From: Candidatus Thermoplasmatota archaeon
GTDB lineage: Archaea; Thermoplasmatota; SW-10-69-26; JACQPN01; JAJPHT01
Reading direction: 5' to 3'
Length of the DNA stretch: 38,688 nucleotides
Assembly (NCBI GenBank): GCA_035540375.1
Contig: DATLGO010000021.1
Span: forward strand, 1 to 38,688
Shown here piece by piece: positions 8,476 through 17,681 of the stretch. Positions within the stretch are counted from its first letter, which is position 1. Every line of letters starts with the position of its first letter. Below the pieces are notes generated by a model, which saw nothing but the letters and a program-made list of their open reading frames with translations, was not told the DNA's origin and ran no database searches. The position numbers and the translations under genes were made by a program.

Positions 8476-10020
8476 ATGGCGGACGAACACGAACGGCGCG
8501 GTCGGACGGGCCGAACGACGGATGACCAGGACGCGGACCGCCTCGCGGCGCGCCTCGCGGCGCAGAACCAGGAGATCGCCGAGCTGCAGGCGACGGTGAA
8601 GGCCTACGAGGAGAAGTTCAACCAGATCAAGGAGCCCCCGCTCCTTTCGGCCTACGTCCTCCGTCTCGGGGGCGCCGACCTCGACCAGCGCGAGTGCGTC
8701 GTCGCGCACGGCAGCCAGGTATTGAAGGTCAACACGGGCAACCTCGAGAAGAAGGCCCTCCGCCAGGGCCAGTACGTTTGGCTCCACCCGAAGACCTACG
8801 CGATCATCGCCGCCTCCCGGCAGTTCGAGCAGGGCGTCGTCGGCAAGGTGGTGGACATCTACGCCGAGAAGCTCGTCATCACCGTCGGCGACGGCTTCGA
8901 AAAGAAGATCATCGATCTCGACGCGTCGATCGCGGACGAGATCAAGATCGGTTACGAGCTGTCCCTCCTTCCGCCCTCGATGGAGATCCTCGAGGTGCGG
9001 CCTTCGAGCGAGATCCGCGACCTCTTCCTCGGCGAGACCCCGAACGTGCGCTACGCGCAGATCGGCGGGCTCTCCGAGACGATCGAGCGCATCCGCGACG
9101 TCGTCGAGCTGCCCTACCAGGAGCCGGAGCTCTTCGCGAAGATCCGGCTCAAGGCTCCGAAGGGTGTCCTCCTCTACGGCCCGCCCGGCTGCGGCAAGAC
9201 GCTCATCGGCAAGGCCGTCGCGACCGAGAACGAGATGACGTTCTTCAACGTCAAGGTGGCCGACATCCTGTCCAAGTGGGTCGGCGAATCCGAGAACATG
9301 ATCAAGGCGCTCTTCCGCAAAGCGCGCGAGAACGCCCCCTCGATCATCTTCTTCGACGAGTTCGACGCCCTGGGCACGACCCGCGGCCAGCAGGACTCGG
9401 CCGGGGTCCAGAAGAACATCATCGCGCAGATCCTCTCGGAGATGGACGGCATCGACACGCTGAAGGACGTCTACATCCTCGGCGCGACGAACCGCCCCGA
9501 CATGATCGACCCGGCGCTCCTGCGCCCGGGCCGCTTCGACGAGGTCATCGAGATCCCTCGCCCGGACCGGAAGGCCGCGGAGCAGATCATCTCGATCTAC
9601 CTCACGCCCGACCTGCCGATCCAGGAATCCTTCGTCAAGGAGCACGGCGGCGACAAGACCCGCGCCATGAACGCCATGCGGGAGATCCTCGTCGAGGAGC
9701 TCTACGGCGAGAACAAGTGGGTTGAGTTCAAGCTCGACTCCGAGGCGAAGGAGAGCGTCAAGACGATCAAGCGCAAGGACATCGTGTCCGGCGCCCTCGT
9801 CGAGAGCATCATCACCACGGCGAAGAAGAACTACGTGAAGCGCGTCCTCAACTTCCCGAAGGGGTCGCCCGACCGCGAGCGCGAAGGCCTTTCGGTGGAC
9901 GACATCCGCAAGGCCGCGGAAGAGGAGAGCAAGGAGCACGCGCTCGTCGAGTCCTCCGTGTACCACAAGCGCCAGCGCGAGCGGGCGCGGTTCCGCGAGG
10001 AAGGCGTCGAAGTGATGTAG
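8476..10020 (+). CDS. ARC/Mpa-like AAA ATPase, candidate proteasome-associated unfoldase
   Basis: The 514-residue protein has an N-terminal coiled coil (about 21-52), then two consecutive OB-like domains (about 55-115 and 116-178), then one AAA module. The AAA module has Walker A GPPGCGKT (235-242), aromatic pore loop KWVGES (267-272), Walker B IIFFDEFD (290-297), sensor N339 and arginine fingers R350/R353. Archaeal PAN has one OB domain and is about 400-430 residues. The double OB, the insert before IGGLSETIERIRD, and the C-terminal AAA subdomain (IYLTPDLPIQ, VSGALVESIITTAKKN) match actinobacterial ARC/Mpa. Those ATPases bind Pup with the coiled coil and feed substrates to the 20S proteasome. 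The C-terminus (EEGVEVM) lacks the HbYX or GQYL docking motif. A PafA-like ligase lies 4.4 kb downstream. It could be annotated as PAN by default; I consider the ARC class better supported. Confidence 0.85.
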   Translation: MADEHERRGRTGRTTDDQDADRLAARLAAQNQEIAELQATVKAYEEKFNQIKEPPLLSAYVLRLGGADLDQRECVVAHGSQVLKVNTGNLEKKALRQGQYVWLHPKTYAIIAASRQFEQGVVGKVVDIYAEKLVITVGDGFEKKIIDLDASIADEIKIGYELSLLPPSMEILEVRPSSEIRDLFLGETPNVRYAQIGGLSETIERIRDVVELPYQEPELFAKIRLKAPKGVLLYGPPGCGKTLIGKAVATENEMTFFNVKVADILSKWVGESENMIKALFRKARENAPSIIFFDEFDALGTTRGQQDSAGVQKNIIAQILSEMDGIDTLKDVYILGATNRPDMIDPALLRPGRFDEVIEIPRPDRKAAEQIISIYLTPDLPIQESFVKEHGGDKTRAMNAMREILVEELYGENKWVEFKLDSEAKESVKTIKRKDIVSGALVESIITTAKKNYVKRVLNFPKGSPDREREGLSVDDIRKAAEEESKEHALVESSVYHKRQRERARFREEGVEVM

Positions 10021-10108
10021 GCTCGCCCGCGCCGCCGGTCGCGGGCAACCGGACGAGGCGCCCTGCCGTCGGACCTTGATCCACAAGCCGCATGTCCAGC
10101 AAGCCGAC

Positions 10109-10114
10109 GGAGGG
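10109..10114 (+). promoter_or_regulatory. Shine-Dalgarno site selecting ATG 10122
   Basis: GGAGGG is seven bases before the ATG at 10122. It supports that start over the ATG at 10092, which would put ten polar residues in front of the signal peptide. Confidence 0.6.
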
Positions 10115-10121
10115 CGGCCTC

Positions 10122-10913
10122 ATGCGTCATGCCTGGTTCGCGGTCGCCCTCCTCGTCGCCCTCGTGGCCCCGTTCGCGCAGGCGGCGGGCTGCGACGTCG
10201 ACGAGGTGGACGTCTTCTTCGATCTCTTCCACGTCGACGGCACCTCGGAGGAGGTCGACGACCTCGCCCTCGTGGAGGCCGGCGACCGGGTTGCCTTGCG
10301 GGCGAACGGTCCGCTCCACTGCGAGGGCGTCGCTCTTTCGATCGTGACCTACGCCGACCCCGGAGGCGAGAGGCTCGTCTTCGACATCGGCTCGGCGAGC
10401 GGCCATCCGCCGCGTCCGGGCGCGGACTTCACCTTCTGGGAGGTCGACGTCTCGGTGCCCTCGTGCGACTTCCGCGTCGAGGTCTGGTGGGGAGAGCCCG
10501 GGACGGGTCAGCTGCTCGACGCCGCCGACGGGGACGCCGGGCCTTGCGAAGTCACCCCGCCAAGCTGCCCCGGCGACCTGCGGGCCTCCTCGGCCGACGG
10601 TCGGGTTCTCCTTGATTGGACCGCCGGCGAAGGCGCCTGGGAGTACAACGTGTATCGCGCCCGGGGCGACGCCCCCCTCGCGCTCTACCGGGTCGTTCCC
10701 GTCAACGAGACCGCGATGGTGGACGAGGACGTGACGGTGGGCGAAACCTACCGCTACCGTGTGACGTCCATCAGCGCGTACGGCGAGAGCGACGCCTGCG
10801 TCGTCGTCGAGGTCGCGGCAATCCCGCTGTTTCCGGACCTCGCGACGGGCGCGCTCGCGCTCGGGGCTTGCCTCGTCGGCTACGCGGGATTGCGACCCCG
10901 CCGTCGAGGCTGA
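10122..10913 (+). CDS. Secreted fibronectin-III protein with C-terminal membrane anchor
   Basis: The 263-residue product starts with a signal peptide (MRHAWFAVALLVALVAPFAQAAG). An acidic beta-rich domain with several cysteines follows (about 24-145), then one fibronectin type III domain (about 150-232; VLLDWTAGEGAWEYNVYR, GETYRYRVTSIS). The end is IPLFPDLATG, a hydrophobic stretch and RPRRRG. This layout resembles PEF/PGF-CTERM signals processed by archaeosortases, but the exact motif is not a standard one. The protein is expected at the cell surface. Function unknown. It sits directly after the ARC-like ATPase but has its own ribosome-binding site. Confidence 0.8.
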   Translation: MRHAWFAVALLVALVAPFAQAAGCDVDEVDVFFDLFHVDGTSEEVDDLALVEAGDRVALRANGPLHCEGVALSIVTYADPGGERLVFDIGSASGHPPRPGADFTFWEVDVSVPSCDFRVEVWWGEPGTGQLLDAADGDAGPCEVTPPSCPGDLRASSADGRVLLDWTAGEGAWEYNVYRARGDAPLALYRVVPVNETAMVDEDVTVGETYRYRVTSISAYGESDACVVVEVAAIPLFPDLATGALALGACLVGYAGLRPRRRG

Positions 10914-10962
10914 GCCCTCCGGGGTCCGGCGCGTCCTCGCGCGGGATACGGCGCCCCCCGCC

Positions 10963-11901
10963 CTAAGGCTCGCGCCGGGGGGCGGCCTCGGCGCGTCGAT
11001 CCGCCGCGCGCGGCAACGGATGGGCGCCGTAACCGTGGCGCAGGAGCGCGACGGCCTTCGCGGCGACCGAATCGGGATCACGGTAGCGATAGAACATCAT
11101 CTCGCTCAACACGAGGACCGGCGCGAAGGCCTCCTGCTCGAGCACGTGCCGCGCATACCATTTCCCCTCCTTCGTGTCGCTCACGCCGGCGGTCAGGGTC
11201 TCGGTGAAGCGCGGCTCGTCCCGCAGCGCCTCCTCCATGAGGTCAACGAGCCAACCGCGGACGACCGAGCCGTTCGACCAGCACGCCATCACGTCGGCGA
11301 GGTCGAGGTCGTACTCCGATCGATACAGCAGCTCGACGCCCTCGGCGAGCGCCTGCACCATGCCGAACTCGACCGCGTTGTGGATGAGCTTCACGTAATG
11401 GCCCGCCCCCGGGCCGCCCGCGTGCACGAAGCCGCCAGGGACGGCGAGGTCCCGTAGGAGCGGCGCGACGACGCGCACCGCGTCCCCCTCGCCCCCGACC
11501 ATGAAACACGCGCCCGTGCGCGCGCCCTCGACGCCGCCGCTCGTGCCCGCGTCGACGAACCGCAGCCCGCGCGCGGCGAGGTCGGCGTGCCTGCGCCTCG
11601 ATTCCCGCCAATGGCTGTTGCCGCCGTCGACCACGACGTCGCCGGCTTCGAGGACCCCGGAGAGCGCGCCGAGGACCGACTCGACGGCGTCGCCGTGGGG
11701 AACGTACACGAGGACGACGCGCGGCGGCGCGAGCGCGGCGGCGAGGTCTTCGTACGTGAACGTCGCGGTGACGCCCTCCCGCGCGAGGCGCCGCGTCGGC
11801 TCGGGCGAGCGGTTGAGGCCGACGACCTCGTGGCCTTTCTCGAGCGCCTGGAGCGCGAGGCTCGCGCCGATGCGCCCGAGACCGACGACCCCGAACCGCA
11901 C
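10963..11901 (-). CDS. gnd: 6-phosphogluconate dehydrogenase, short decarboxylating type
   Basis: The 312-residue protein has an N-terminal Rossmann motif GLGRIGASLA (7-16), the substrate motif GTSGGVEGARTGACFMVGG (119-137) and the catalytic lysine K171 in VKLIHNAVEFG, with E178 following. The length fits the short Gnd/YqeC class, which oxidises 6-phosphogluconate to ribulose 5-phosphate and CO2. Other beta-hydroxyacid dehydrogenases share the fold, but VDGGNSHW and the GG-containing substrate loop favour Gnd. The stop of the bactofilin-like gene lies 2 bp upstream, so it is probably the last gene of a three-gene reverse-strand operon. Confidence 0.88.
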   Translation of the reverse strand: MRFGVVGLGRIGASLALQALEKGHEVVGLNRSPEPTRRLAREGVTATFTYEDLAAALAPPRVVLVYVPHGDAVESVLGALSGVLEAGDVVVDGGNSHWRESRRRHADLAARGLRFVDAGTSGGVEGARTGACFMVGGEGDAVRVVAPLLRDLAVPGGFVHAGGPGAGHYVKLIHNAVEFGMVQALAEGVELLYRSEYDLDLADVMACWSNGSVVRGWLVDLMEEALRDEPRFTETLTAGVSDTKEGKWYARHVLEQEAFAPVLVLSEMMFYRYRDPDSVAAKAVALLRHGYGAHPLPRAADRRAEAAPRREP

Positions 11902-11903
11902 GG

Positions 11904-12305
11904 TCAGCCGCCCTTCGCGGGCAGAAGGAGCCGGCGACAGGTGAGGTCGCCGTCCACGCGGGCGCCCGAGGCGACGAACGCGTCGCCGCCCACCTCGGCG
12001 CCCTTCACGACGGCGCCGCTCTTGAGATGCAGGTTGCCGTGGACGGTCGCGACGTCCGGAAGCCTCGATCCTCGCCCGAGCGTGAGATCGCCCTCCACCG
12101 TCACGGGCCCCCGCAGCACCGTCTCGTCGCCGAGCTCGAGCGTGCCCTTCACGACGAGGCCTTCGGCGAACGTGGCGCGCTTCTCGAGCAGGATCGTGCC
12201 CGAGAGGACCGTCGGCCCGTCAGGGCCGTCGTAGACCACCTGCTCGGGGGGGATCGGAGACTTCGTGCCCTTCACGGCGCGGGTCTTCCTGCCGAAGAGC
12301 CCCAT
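11904..12305 (-). CDS. Bactofilin-like polymer-forming protein B
   Basis: The 133-residue protein starts MGLFGRKTRA. Residues 30-128 form a short beta-helix with regularly spaced Gly/Val pairs (GLVVKGTLELG, RGPVTVEGDLTLG, ATVHGNLHLKSG, ARVDGDLTCRR), as in bactofilins (polymer-forming cytoskeletal proteins). The ATG shares one base with the stop of the upstream gene, which fixes the start and implies coupled translation. Such proteins assemble into filaments, often at membranes. The archaeal role is not known. Confidence 0.8.
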   Translation of the reverse strand: MGLFGRKTRAVKGTKSPIPPEQVVYDGPDGPTVLSGTILLEKRATFAEGLVVKGTLELGDETVLRGPVTVEGDLTLGRGSRLPDVATVHGNLHLKSGAVVKGAEVGGDAFVASGARVDGDLTCRRLLLPAKGG

Positions 12306-12793
12306 CAGGCGCCACCCCCGAACGGCTTGGCCTCGTCGGTCACGACGCCGATCCCCGAGCGCGCGACGAGCTTCTTCGCGACCTCCCCGTCGACGGTGAC
12401 GAAGGGCGCCCCCTCCACGGCCTCGGTCGCGGTGGAGCCGAGCCCCCATTCGAGCCGGCCCTTCGCGCGGACCGAGCCCTCGATGAACGTTTCCGTGCCC
12501 ACGGAGGTCAGCCCGTCGGCGACGAGGTCGCCCCTGAGGCGGGACCCGGAGGCGATCTGCACCGATCCCGTGCACTGCGTGGTGTAGGCCCAGGTCGTCG
12601 CCTCCTGGATCGTGAGGTTGCCTTCCACGAGGATGCGAGGAGGACCAGCCTTCTCAAGGACGGGTGTCGGGGTCCCGGGCGCCACGTGGAACGGCTGCAC
12701 GTCGGCCTCGGGCGCGGGAACGGCATTCAAGCTCTCGTCGAGGACGAGGTCCCCGAGCTTCGCTCGCGTGGTCTCCGGCTTGGATCGGCCCAT
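12305..12793 (-). CDS. Bactofilin-like polymer-forming protein A
   Basis: The 162-residue protein has a charged, Pro-rich N-terminal tail (about 1-50) and then beta-helix repeats: ILVEGNLTIQEA, GSVQIASGSRLRGDLVADG, TFIEGSVRAKGRLEWG, FVTVDGEVAKKLVARSG. The repeats resemble those of its downstream neighbour, so the two are probably paralogues that co-assemble. It is the first gene of the reverse-strand set ending in gnd. The ATG at 12793 is divergent from the DGQHR gene, with 73 bp between. Confidence 0.75.
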   Translation of the reverse strand: MGRSKPETTRAKLGDLVLDESLNAVPAPEADVQPFHVAPGTPTPVLEKAGPPRILVEGNLTIQEATTWAYTTQCTGSVQIASGSRLRGDLVADGLTSVGTETFIEGSVRAKGRLEWGLGSTATEAVEGAPFVTVDGEVAKKLVARSGIGVVTDEAKPFGGGA

Positions 12794-12866
12794 GCGCGTC
12801 GCGGCGCCGGGAGGCGGGTTTCAAGGTTGACGTACATCGGTCGCGCGAGAGCGGATCGAAAATGAC

Positions 12867-14045
12867 TTGTCCTTCACCGCCCGTCGCGTGGTCACTCAGG
12901 GGTGTTCCCGGCTGCTTGCGACCCGCATCCGTCAGAAGGACGCCACGTTCTACTTCGTGAGCTTCCCCGCGCGCGAGATCATGGACCGCGTGCGCTTCGT
13001 GAGCCGCTTCTACTTCGAAGGCGAGGAGATCGCGCCGGAGGCGACCGCCGACGACGAGATCGGGAAGTTCATCAGCCGCGTCGAGCGATCCGACGCCGCT
13101 TTCCAGCGCCCCTTGAAGAAGCGCAAGGTGCGCGACCTCGTCCACTTCTACGAATCCGCGGCGGAGCAACCCGCGATCCCGGGGACGGTCCTCCTCATCA
13201 CGCGCGAGACCCTGCGCTTCACGCCCCAGCAGGGGAGCTTCGGGGTCCTCACGGAGCCGGGCGAAAAGTTCGACATCATCGATGGCCAGCACCGCCTCGC
13301 GGGGCTGCACTTCTTCTCGCGCCACCTCGAGGCCCGCGGACGCGCCGGCGTCCTCGACACGCTCGAGGTTCCCGCGCTCATCTTCGACGGCAAGTCCGCG
13401 GACTTCGCGGCCGAGATGTTCGTGACCATCAACGCTACGCAGACGCGCATCTCCCGCAGCCACCTCGTCGATCTCCTCGAGAAGGTCACGCTCGCGACGC
13501 CGGAGGAGAAGTTCGCCTCGAAGGTCGTGAAGATGCTCTACGGCGAGGATACGTCGCCCCTGAGATACCGCGTCAACATGCTCGGCGGTCGATCGAAGGG
13601 CGAGAAGTGGATCCTCCAGAGCGAGCTCTACAACGAGATCCTCCGGCTCGTCGGCGGGAAGGAACGCAAGGACGCGAAGCTGAGGAACCTCCTGGTCACG
13701 CGCTGGGACATGCGCGCCGACCGCGCGTTCCAGCTCATCGCGGACTACCTCAAGGCCGTAAAGGAGACCTTCGGTCGCGCATGGGGCGACCGCGAATACC
13801 AGGTGACGAGCGCGGTCGCGCTCAAGGCCTACCTCAGGGCCCTGCCGGCGGTCCTCTCGGACCGGCGCACGGTCGAACGATGGGAGCGCGAGCGCAGCGC
13901 CGCCGTCCTTCTCGAGCGCGTGCGACCCTGGGCCGGCATCGTCGAGGACCTCCGGACGGAGGGCTTCTTCAACCGGTTCCCCGCGAAGGGGCAGCTCGAG
14001 CGCGTCCGCCTCATCCAGAAGGACCTCGAAAAGGAACTCGCCTGA
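12867..14045 (+). CDS. DGQHR-domain protein (DndB-like fold)
   Basis: The 392-residue protein carries the diagnostic DGQHR at 139-143 and the companion segment FVTINATQTRISRSHLVDL (185-203). Both are hallmarks of the DGQHR superfamily, related to the phosphorothioation regulator DndB and to ParB/sulfiredoxin-like folds. The alpha-helical C-terminal half is less conserved. No other dnd genes are present, so a role in DNA phosphorothioation is not supported. The start is uncertain: TTG at 12867 is given, GTG at 12888 is an alternative. The conserved text begins near residue 13. It runs 62 bp ahead of the winged-helix gene and pafA-like gene on the same strand. Confidence 0.8.
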   Translation: MSFTARRVVTQGCSRLLATRIRQKDATFYFVSFPAREIMDRVRFVSRFYFEGEEIAPEATADDEIGKFISRVERSDAAFQRPLKKRKVRDLVHFYESAAEQPAIPGTVLLITRETLRFTPQQGSFGVLTEPGEKFDIIDGQHRLAGLHFFSRHLEARGRAGVLDTLEVPALIFDGKSADFAAEMFVTINATQTRISRSHLVDLLEKVTLATPEEKFASKVVKMLYGEDTSPLRYRVNMLGGRSKGEKWILQSELYNEILRLVGGKERKDAKLRNLLVTRWDMRADRAFQLIADYLKAVKETFGRAWGDREYQVTSAVALKAYLRALPAVLSDRRTVERWERERSAAVLLERVRPWAGIVEDLRTEGFFNRFPAKGQLERVRLIQKDLEKELA

Positions 14046-14107
14046 TGACGGGTCCATGTCGGAGCGAGGAGAAGACGGAACATTCAAACGGACCGCCGTC
14101 CACGTGA

Positions 14108-14428
14108 ATGACGGTGGTGTCAACGGCGTTTACGGAGTTGTTCGTCGGGTCCCCCCACGCGCGCGTCCTCGACTTCCTCGCGGAGCGCCCGGAGCTGGAC
14201 TACACCATCACGCAGCTCGCGGAGGGCGCGGGCGTCGCGCGGCCGACCGTCTACAAGGTCGTGCGCGATTTCGGCTCCCGGGGCCTCCTCGTGCCGAGCC
14301 GCGTCGTCGGCAACTCGCGCTTCTACCGGCTCGACCGCGGGTCGGCCGCCGTGCGCGAGCTCCTGCGCATCGAGCCGGCCCTCGCGACCGCCTCGCGCCG
14401 TCGCCGACGCGTCGCGCGGAGGTCCTGA
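14108..14428 (+). CDS. Winged helix-turn-helix protein upstream of the PafA-like gene
   Basis: This 106-residue protein has a winged-helix fold: an initial helix (ARVLDFLAERP), the HTH (TITQLAEGAGVARPTVYKVVRDFGSRGLL) and the wing (VPSRVVGNSRFYRLD). A very basic tail (ASRRRRRVARRS) ends it. It is separated from the PafA-like gene by one base, and that gene's ribosome-binding site lies inside this reading frame. The two are therefore surely co-transcribed, and this protein may autoregulate the pair. It is unrelated to the WYL-type PafB/PafC regulators of actinobacteria. Confidence 0.85.
   Translation: MTVVSTAFTELFVGSPHARVLDFLAERPELDYTITQLAEGAGVARPTVYKVVRDFGSRGLLVPSRVVGNSRFYRLDRGSAAVRELLRIEPALATASRRRRRVARRS
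14418..14423 (+). promoter_or_regulatory. Strong Shine-Dalgarno site for the PafA-like gene
   Basis: GGAGGT lies six bases before the ATG at 14430 and inside the last codons of the winged-helix gene. It fixes the start at MKPMIMGSEHEY and indicates coupled translation. Confidence 0.75.
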
Positions 14429-14429
14429 G

Positions 14430-15719
14430 ATGAAACCCATGATCATGGGGTCGGAGCATGAGTACACGCTCTACTCCCATCAGATGAACCCGCGCGGCAT
14501 CGACCCGCACCGGCTCGCGCTCGAGGTGCTCCGCAAGAGCCAGTTCGCGACGCAGGGCGAGTGGCTGAAGAACGGCAGCCGCGCGTATTTCGATGTCGGT
14601 CACCTCGAGATCTCGACGCCGGAGGTCCTCGACGCCTACCAGCTCGTCGTGTACGAGAAGGCCGGCGAGCGCATCGTCGACCTCGCGCGCACGAAGCTCG
14701 AGGAGTTCCACAACGTCAAGGTCAGCGCGTTCAAGAACAACACCGACCCCGACGGCGTCTCGTACGGCTCGCACGAGAACTACTGCGTGCCGCGGAGCAT
14801 CGAGTTCCCGGGCGCCTACGTGCGGAGCCTCGTCCCCCATCTCGTGAGCCGCCTCACGTTCTCGGGCGCGGGCGACTTCATCGACCGCCGCTACGTGCTC
14901 TCGCCGTGCGGCTACCTCACGAGCGAGCTCATCTCGGGCGGCAACCTCTCGAACACCGGCATCCTGCACACGCGGGACGAGCCGCACGCCGACCCGACGC
15001 GCTGGCGCCGCCTGCACGTCATCATCGGCGACGCGCTCATGTCGGAATGGAGCATCTACCTGCGCGCGTTCACGACGAGCGCCATCCTGCAGCTCATGGA
15101 GAAGGGCCTCGTCGACGACGCGCCGCAGCTGCGCGAGCCTTTGCGCGACATGTGGCACATGGTCGAGCAGGTCGCGCCCGAGCAATGGAAGCTCGAGCTC
15201 GTCGACGGGTCGTGGGTCTCACCGATGGAGATCCAGCGCTACTACCTCGCGAAGGTCGAGGAGGCGGGCCTCGTCGAGAACGCGCGCGAGAAGGAGGCGC
15301 TTTCCCAATGGGAATGGGTCCTCGACCGCCTCGACGCGGGCGACCTCACGAAGCTCAAGCGCAAGGTCGAGTGGATGACGCGCCTCATCGAGGTCGAGAA
15401 GATGATCGACCTCAAGGGCCGCGACGAGAACGTCGAGATCGCCGCGACGAAGCAGTACTCGGAACTCTCGCTCGCCTCGGGCCTCTACTACAAGCTCCAG
15501 GCCGCGGGCGAGGTGGACCGCGTCGTGACGGATGCGGAGATCAAGAAGGCGATCGTGGAGCCGCCGCCCACGCGGGCGCGCGCCCGCGTGAAGCTCCTCG
15601 AGGAGTACGAGATGGGCTCCATCGACTGGAGCGAGATGTCGATCCTCACGGAGGACGGCGGCTACGAGCGCATCCACCTGCCCGACCCGTACGATCCGAA
15701 GCACGAGATGGTGGACTGA
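14430..15719 (+). CDS. PafA/Dop-family carboxylate-amine ligase (Pup ligase-like)
   Basis: The 429-residue protein matches the Pup ligase/deamidase family along its length. Visible blocks are IMGSEHEYTL with E9 and E11, NGSRAYFDVG with the catalytic-base aspartate D55, VVYEKAGERIVDLA, FKNNTDPDGVSYGSHENY (101-118), HTRDEPHAD (180-188), RRLHVIIGD (193-201), EIQRYYL, QYSELSLASGLYYKL and EPPPTRARAR. In actinobacteria PafA attaches Pup to lysines and Dop deamidates or removes it. The roughly 40-residue Dop loop after the first glutamates is absent and the C-terminal piece (SIDW...LPDPYDP) resembles PafA, so ligase is favoured. The fold is shared with glutamine synthetase and gamma-glutamyl-cysteine ligase, but RDEPHAD/RRLHVIIGD is specific to PafA/Dop. 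Codon use is like the neighbours. Confidence 0.9.
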   Translation: MKPMIMGSEHEYTLYSHQMNPRGIDPHRLALEVLRKSQFATQGEWLKNGSRAYFDVGHLEISTPEVLDAYQLVVYEKAGERIVDLARTKLEEFHNVKVSAFKNNTDPDGVSYGSHENYCVPRSIEFPGAYVRSLVPHLVSRLTFSGAGDFIDRRYVLSPCGYLTSELISGGNLSNTGILHTRDEPHADPTRWRRLHVIIGDALMSEWSIYLRAFTTSAILQLMEKGLVDDAPQLREPLRDMWHMVEQVAPEQWKLELVDGSWVSPMEIQRYYLAKVEEAGLVENAREKEALSQWEWVLDRLDAGDLTKLKRKVEWMTRLIEVEKMIDLKGRDENVEIAATKQYSELSLASGLYYKLQAAGEVDRVVTDAEIKKAIVEPPPTRARARVKLLEEYEMGSIDWSEMSILTEDGGYERIHLPDPYDPKHEMVD

Positions 15720-17247: not shown

Positions 17248-17493
17248 ATGCCGGACGAGGAGATCGTGACGGTCCGCCTCCCCCCGCGGGACCGCGACGC
17301 GGTGCGTCGCCTCGTGGAGCAGGGAGTCTTCCGGAACCGCAGCGACTTCATCCGGCACGCCGTGAAGGCCGCCCTCGAACGGTATGGCGCCGCGCCCTCG
17401 GTGCCCGACCTCACGCTCGAGGGCGTGGAACTCCCCGCCGCCGACGCGCCGACGCGGTCGCGGGCCCGCGGGGCCCAACGCCAGGGGCGATGA
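17248..17493 (+). CDS. Ribbon-helix-helix (CopG-like) transcription regulator
   Basis: The 81-residue protein begins with the RHH strand IVTVRLPPRDRDAVRRLVEQG, followed by FRNRSDFIRHAVKAALERYG, the second and third elements of the MetJ/Arc fold. The tail after residue 45 is Pro-rich and probably flexible. It is expected to dimerise and bind tandem half-sites such as the GTAATACA repeat in its own promoter. Its TGA overlaps the ATG of the next small gene (ATGA), so the two form an operon. Confidence 0.85.
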   Translation: MPDEEIVTVRLPPRDRDAVRRLVEQGVFRNRSDFIRHAVKAALERYGAAPSVPDLTLEGVELPAADAPTRSRARGAQRQGR

Positions 17494-17681
17494 CGCTCAT
17501 GACCGAACGCAAGCTCAAGAAGAAGACGAAGCAGGAAAAGGCCACCGAGGTGAAGCTCGACATCGGCGACACCTTCGAGGTGGCGAACGCGAAGGACAAG
17601 GATTTCGACCTCGACCTCGACGCCGCCAAGTTCCAGGGCAAAAAGGGACAGGCCGGCACGCGGACGAAGGCCGTGAGCTGA
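17490..17681 (+). CDS. Small charged protein coupled to the RHH regulator
   Basis: The 63-residue product has a Lys-rich start (MTERKLKKKTKQEK), a central beta-like stretch (TEVKLDIGDTFEVA), an Asp-rich stretch (DKDFDLDLDAAKF) and a basic tail (KKGQAGTRTKAVS). It starts at an ATG overlapping the regulator stop by four bases, and a second in-frame ATG lies at 17499. No family recognised. An RHH protein followed by a small overlapping gene resembles toxin-antitoxin layout, but nothing in the sequence looks like a known toxin. Confidence 0.6.
   Translation: MTLMTERKLKKKTKQEKATEVKLDIGDTFEVANAKDKDFDLDLDAAKFQGKKGQAGTRTKAVS

Follow-up and report, generated by a model that had tools for sequence, protein, structure and literature searches.

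Do archaea tag proteins by a Pup-type system? This question is raised by a stretch of 38,688 nucleotides from a Candidatus Thermoplasmatota archaeon (contig DATLGO010000021.1, assembly GCA_035540375.1; the whole stretch is called the window here), in which an earlier note, made from the sequence alone, had proposed an ARC/Mpa-type ATPase and a PafA-type ligase as parts of a Pup-like tagging pathway. Both open reading frames are present at the positions and on the strand reported there (Table 1). The proposal is supported by the clade to which the ATPase belongs, by the fold of the ligase, by the co-occurrence of the genes among relatives and by a small protein with a G[E/Q] motif that accompanies them, and from these features we infer that the locus very probably encodes an archaeal variant of Pup conjugation.

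The ATPase matched the NCBIfam model pup_AAA (TIGR03689) with 372 bits over residues 19-489, nearly the whole protein, and the PAN model with 277 bits over the AAA part only; the TIGR03689 score falls short of the equivalog cut-off of that model (504.75). The distance from the end of the coiled coil to the AAA domain is 142 residues (P54 to I196), compared with 155-159 residues in bacterial ARCs and ~84 in the PAN of the window genome. As this spacing is near that of the bacterial ARCs, it fits two OB domains, while the shorter stretch in that PAN can accommodate one, bearing out the coiled coil and tandem OB domains that the earlier note had described. In a tree that included PAN, Cdc48 and FtsH, the archaeal ATPases and the bacterial ARCs formed one clade with support of 100/99, placing the ATPase outside PAN, the position that the note had held would speak against its reading. 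PAN or Cdc48 identity of the ATPase is ruled out by this tree.

The ligase scored 295 bits against the Pfam Pup_ligase model (PF03136), and its sequence matches among solved structures were Dop and PafA only. The nearest PDB folds to its AlphaFold model (predicted local distance difference test, pLDDT, of 90) were Dop, Dop-Pup and PafA-Pup, with template modelling (TM) scores to the query of 0.80-0.90, and YbdK and glutamate-cysteine ligases followed far behind. A glutamine synthetase or glutamate-cysteine ligase identity, which the earlier note had named as an outcome that would refute its reading, is ruled out by this fold, to which those two enzymes are only distantly similar. All of the PafA/Dop motifs previously recognized in the ligase, together with E9, E11 and D55, are present, and the catalytic Glu/Glu/Asp set is invariant in 20/20 archaeal sequences. 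The archaeal ligases formed one clade (100/100), which has a long stem and lies outside the PafA and Dop of actinobacteria, in an unrooted tree whose bacterial references were few, very long-branched and unstable.

A third component, absent from the earlier note's list, was spotted by cross-comparing gene neighbourhoods, in which a short open reading frame of ~60 amino acids with a near-fixed C-terminal block recurred downstream of the ligase gene. In the window this candidate tag gene lies 1.8 kb 3' of the ligase gene, the first of its two possible start codons overlapping the stop codon of a ribbon-helix-helix (RHH) gene as ATGA. Its conserved motif is [F/Y/W]xx[K/R/Q/A]KG[E/Q][G/A]G[D/T]R, in which KG is followed by Glu or Gln in all homologues, about half of which encode Glu. 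At least six switches between the two residues could be mapped on the ligase tree, and the tags of two loci (L060 and L064) differ solely at this residue. This column of the alignment matches the conjugated Glu/Gln position of Pup and is presumed to be the conjugation residue. Beyond it stands a tail of either 6 residues, namely GGDRR followed by A, S or T, or 9, the latter being AGTRTKAVS after the Gln in the window. The ratio of nonsynonymous to synonymous substitution (dN/dS) was 0.08 in the soil clade and 0.35 in the window clade, indicating purifying selection, and a negative FoldIndex predicts the protein to be disordered. Known Pups are 50-90 amino acids long, have their genes next to that of PafA and share a G[EQ] signature, with which the protein ends (PMC2588565). 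The earlier note had suggested looking for a small disordered protein with a Glu or Gln end that co-occurs with the pair, and such a protein was found, though with its G[E/Q] internal rather than terminal.

In a survey of 390 Thermoplasmatota genomes, the ligase was found in 8, with one gene in each (exactly one in the window genome; in G037 the gene is split over two contig ends), and the ARC in 5, all of them among these 8, so that the two genes do co-occur across relatives, as anticipated. The tag was present in 7/8 ligase genomes, the contig of the eighth ending inside the ligase gene, and absent from all 382 genomes of the phylum without the ligase (naive hypergeometric p ~3e-14, ignoring relatedness). 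Scanning the GTDB r220 contigs for peptides conserved among the archaeal ligases, a search in which ligases with other peptides would be missed, added metagenome-assembled genomes (MAGs) from soil, sediment, groundwater and other sources. This gave 27 archaeal genomes with the ligase in total, nearly all of them assigned to Thermoplasmata or to unclassified Euryarchaeota; beyond archaea, the scan gave one distant Patescibacteria locus (L075). Among the 27, the ARC was found in 23 and the tag in 24, the other three contigs ending inside or just after the ligase gene; all 24 testable archaeal genomes thus have the tag, either next to the ligase or elsewhere. Relatives from soil and sediment have the three genes in a single operon, consisting of ARC, a 3 bp gap, ligase, a 17 nt overlap and tag. 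In the window and in G037 the tag gene lies apart from the ligase gene, beside the RHH gene, and in G037 this RHH-tag pair is ~129 kb from the ligase end on the contig. The window would hold a dispersed copy of a Pup-type system that relatives keep as a compact ARC-ligase-tag operon.

This distribution also bears on whether assembly contamination or chance similarity could account for the genes, a prospect that we consider negligible. Although one operon-bearing relative has a proteobacterial label (Centralia_MAG_189), contamination is excluded by the recurrence of the genes in 27 archaeal MAGs from several studies, archaeal FEN1 lies near the ARC in four genomes, and the archaeal ligase clade is fully supported. 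Codon composition in the window (GC 0.65-0.66; GC at third codon positions 0.95) resembles that of the adjoining genes, and the earlier judgement from composition that contamination is unlikely is upheld. The contig filed under Proteobacteria (L074; JAJPHT010000035.1) is apparently identical to an archaeal contig of the survey (G037:C18; 17903 bases); its label looks wrong, as G037 was assigned to the same archaeal family as the window genome.

The ligase scored nearly equally against the PafA model (243 bits) and the Dop model (240 bits), which raises the alternative that the enzyme only modifies its partner, as a Dop-like deamidase or as a gamma-glutamyl ligase adding a small amine, so that no protein is tagged and the small protein is a regulator or signal peptide. 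Dop-like states at S72 (19/20) and E196 (14/20) and the internal G[E/Q] of the tag would agree with this alternative, which we nevertheless regard as quite improbable. When positions taken from a PafA-Dop exchange study (PMC7947786) were compared across 20 archaeal sequences, the Dop-loop was absent from all ligases (0/20), and A37, V65, G66, T73, S194 and D439 showed the PafA-like state in 19-20/20, with V65 and G66 (beside the catalytic Asp), S194 and D439 doing so in 20/20. Positions 65 and 66 are among those that convert Dop into a ligase (PMC7947786). In addition, tagging would be in keeping with the presence of an ARC-type motor in the operon and, as about half of the tags already encode Glu, deamidation alone would be without a substrate there. 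As there is no second paralogue and the other half of the tags encode Gln, a single PafA/Dop-type enzyme probably carries out both deamidation and ligation.

Under the Pup-type reading, the small protein would serve as the tag, and the single PafA/Dop-type enzyme would activate the gamma-carboxylate of its Glu, or of its deamidated Gln, at KG[E/Q] and join the activated tag to lysines of other proteins. The coiled coil of the ARC-type ATPase would then grip the disordered tag, and the ATPase would unfold the tagged protein and hand it over to the archaeal 20S proteasome.

Several observations weigh against this reading. The archaeal ARCs carry no GQYL/HbYX docking end, their C-termini being GVEVM (as in the window) or DPMVG. 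No second paralogue (Dop) was found in any archaeal genome tested. The G[E/Q] of the tag is internal, with a tail of 6-9 residues in all 24, while described Pups end there, and no Pfam or NCBIfam Pup model matches the tag up to E = 10. The genome SW_10_69_26 (95% complete) has the ligase and the tag with no ARC found, and none was found in a relative from its family (75% complete) either. Finally, when the L015 ligase, 40 read-through residues (TGA read as Trp) and the tag were folded as a single AlphaFold chain, the ligase part was good and the C-terminal part of the tag, whose docking in the ligase groove was the point of interest, had no confident placement (mean pLDDT of ~55 or less); the best PDB match of this chain was the PafA-Pup complex 4bjr, not Dop, which is given no weight as the query protein had also changed. 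Because the G[E/Q] is not terminal, only one paralogue is present and the docking motif is missing, the system is described here as a variant and not as a plain member of the Pup family.

That the tag is conjugated through its internal Glu with the tail kept, a single enzyme performing both deamidation and ligation, is put forward only tentatively and is open to real doubt. PafA chemistry acts on the gamma-carboxylate and hence has no chemical need of a free alpha-carboxylate. Internal conjugation would leave a protruding GGDRR or AGTR end on the mark, unlike any described Pup. In 11 soil-type loci (e.g. L062:10663-11943), M16 (insulinase-family) peptidase genes, usually paired, follow the tag on the same strand, and in several soil-type loci a LAGLIDADG endonuclease gene lies between the tag and these peptidases. 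The M16 peptidases are candidate trimmers of the tail, and they are absent near the window genes.

Genes for 20S subunits, a further item that the earlier note had asked after, were found in all tested archaeal genomes, with 2-5 PF00227 genes each, unlinked to the operon; the window genome has three proteasome-family genes, and PAN and Cdc48 are also present. An extra adjacent pair of proteasome-family genes occurs in several genomes (G391:C42, G393:C48, G396:C117, G398:C88 and G037:C49). As others of these archaea have two proteasome-family genes only, the tagging operon does not depend on this extra pair. Conjugation might also occur without degradation by the 20S proteasome, with the ARC acting as a stand-alone unfoldase or segregase, a view that differs from the Pup-type reading in the last step and that we hold to be unlikely. 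It would account for the missing docking motif, the unlinked 20S genes and the genome that retains ligase and tag without an ARC. However, 20S genes are present in all tested genomes and ARCs are known as proteasomal ATPases. Mpa requires its GQYL C-terminus for docking (PMC12288473); docking motifs may differ in these archaea, as the PANs examined in them also have unusual ends (e.g. DAAFA). Planctomycete and Plesiocystis Pup loci are likewise unlinked to proteasome genes (PMC2588565), which agrees with a role outside degradation.

The winged-helix gene next to the window ligase is kept as its neighbour in 6 genomes, and its product probably regulates the ligase gene. The window also encodes, between ARC and ligase, a DGQHR-domain (DndB/DpdB-like) protein (12867-14045), which adjoins the ligase in this genome only, and two overlapping open reading frames (12305-12793 and, on the minus strand, 11904-12575), the second with a weak bactofilin match. 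In two genomes of the SW_10_69_26 family (G022:C43 and G043:C187), a CBS-domain gene stands upstream of the ligase instead of the ARC. At 12 soil-type loci (e.g. L057:6407-7552), the ARC gene is preceded on its strand by a histone-deacetylase-family gene; the proximity of a lysine deacetylase to what is presumed to be a lysine-tagging operon may have a functional meaning or be a coincidence.

Table 1. Features of the candidate tagging locus in the window
Feature	Coordinates	Strand	Remarks
ARC/Mpa-type AAA ATPase	8476..10020	+	N-terminal coiled coil, two OB domains by spacing, AAA domain
Small winged-helix protein gene	14108..14428	+	directly 5' of ligase (1 nt apart)
PafA/Dop-family Pup ligase-like enzyme, 429 aa	14430..15719	+	no Dop-loop; catalytic E9, E11, D55
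Ribbon-helix-helix (CopG/CdrS-like) gene	17248..17493	+	stop overlaps ATG of tag gene
Candidate archaeal Pup (tag), 60-63 aa, charged, predicted disordered	17490..17681	+	start 17490 or 17499
Codon for Gln at G[E/Q] position (Q51 from 17499), presumed conjugation residue	17649..17651	+	column E/Q in all homologues

No report of an archaeal Pup system was found in the open-access literature searched (preprints not covered), in which pupylation has so far been described in bacteria only, and standard annotation models would recognize the ligase and ATPase genes singly and not the tag. According to a published scenario, pupylation arose in Actinobacteria and was then transferred outwards (PMC7947786). 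Bacterial PafA together with Pup-Glu is known to modify many proteins in laboratory E. coli (PMC7947786). If the Pup-type reading is correct, a Pup-type system exists in a second domain of life, possibly in a form that predates the duplication behind the PafA/Dop pair, and would provide a second, non-ubiquitin means of proteasome tagging where PAN and Cdc48 are already present.

With the actinobacterial Pup-proteasome system, the archaeal genes share the ligase family and fold, the catalytic residues, an ARC-type ATPase, 20S genes in the genome, a gene for a small disordered protein beside the ligase and the Glu/Gln alternation at G[E/Q]. They differ in their archaeal host, in the 6-9 residues past G[E/Q], in having one PafA/Dop enzyme instead of two, in an ATPase without a GQYL end, in an operon without 20S genes and in a tag that Pup models do not recognize. 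The Patescibacteria locus (L075:8111-14601) encodes an ARC, two PafA/Dop paralogues, two proteasome-family genes and a small protein of 64 amino acids ending in SGE; the paralogues were labelled PafA and Dop by gene order, and as the first has a Dop-loop-like insertion the labels may be swapped. As in Pup/UBact-type systems of this kind, the archaeal ARC adjoins PafA/Dop-family genes and a small charged protein, but L075 differs by its second paralogue, by the linkage of its proteasome genes and by a tag whose last two residues are GE, and its ligase is only 27-33% identical to that of the window. PAN and SAMP/E1-type modification also operate in archaeal hosts; the ATPase described here belongs to a different clade, the enzyme has a GS/PafA (glutamine synthetase/PafA) fold and the tag is a disordered peptide. 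The loci of Plesiocystis and Rhodopirellula resemble the archaeal ones in having no linkage to proteasome genes (PMC2588565), although their ligases carry transmembrane insertions, whereas the archaeal ligases have none and are accompanied by an ARC gene. Single-copy PafA/Dop homologues of Planctomycetes (PMC7947786) share with the archaeal system its reliance on one enzyme.

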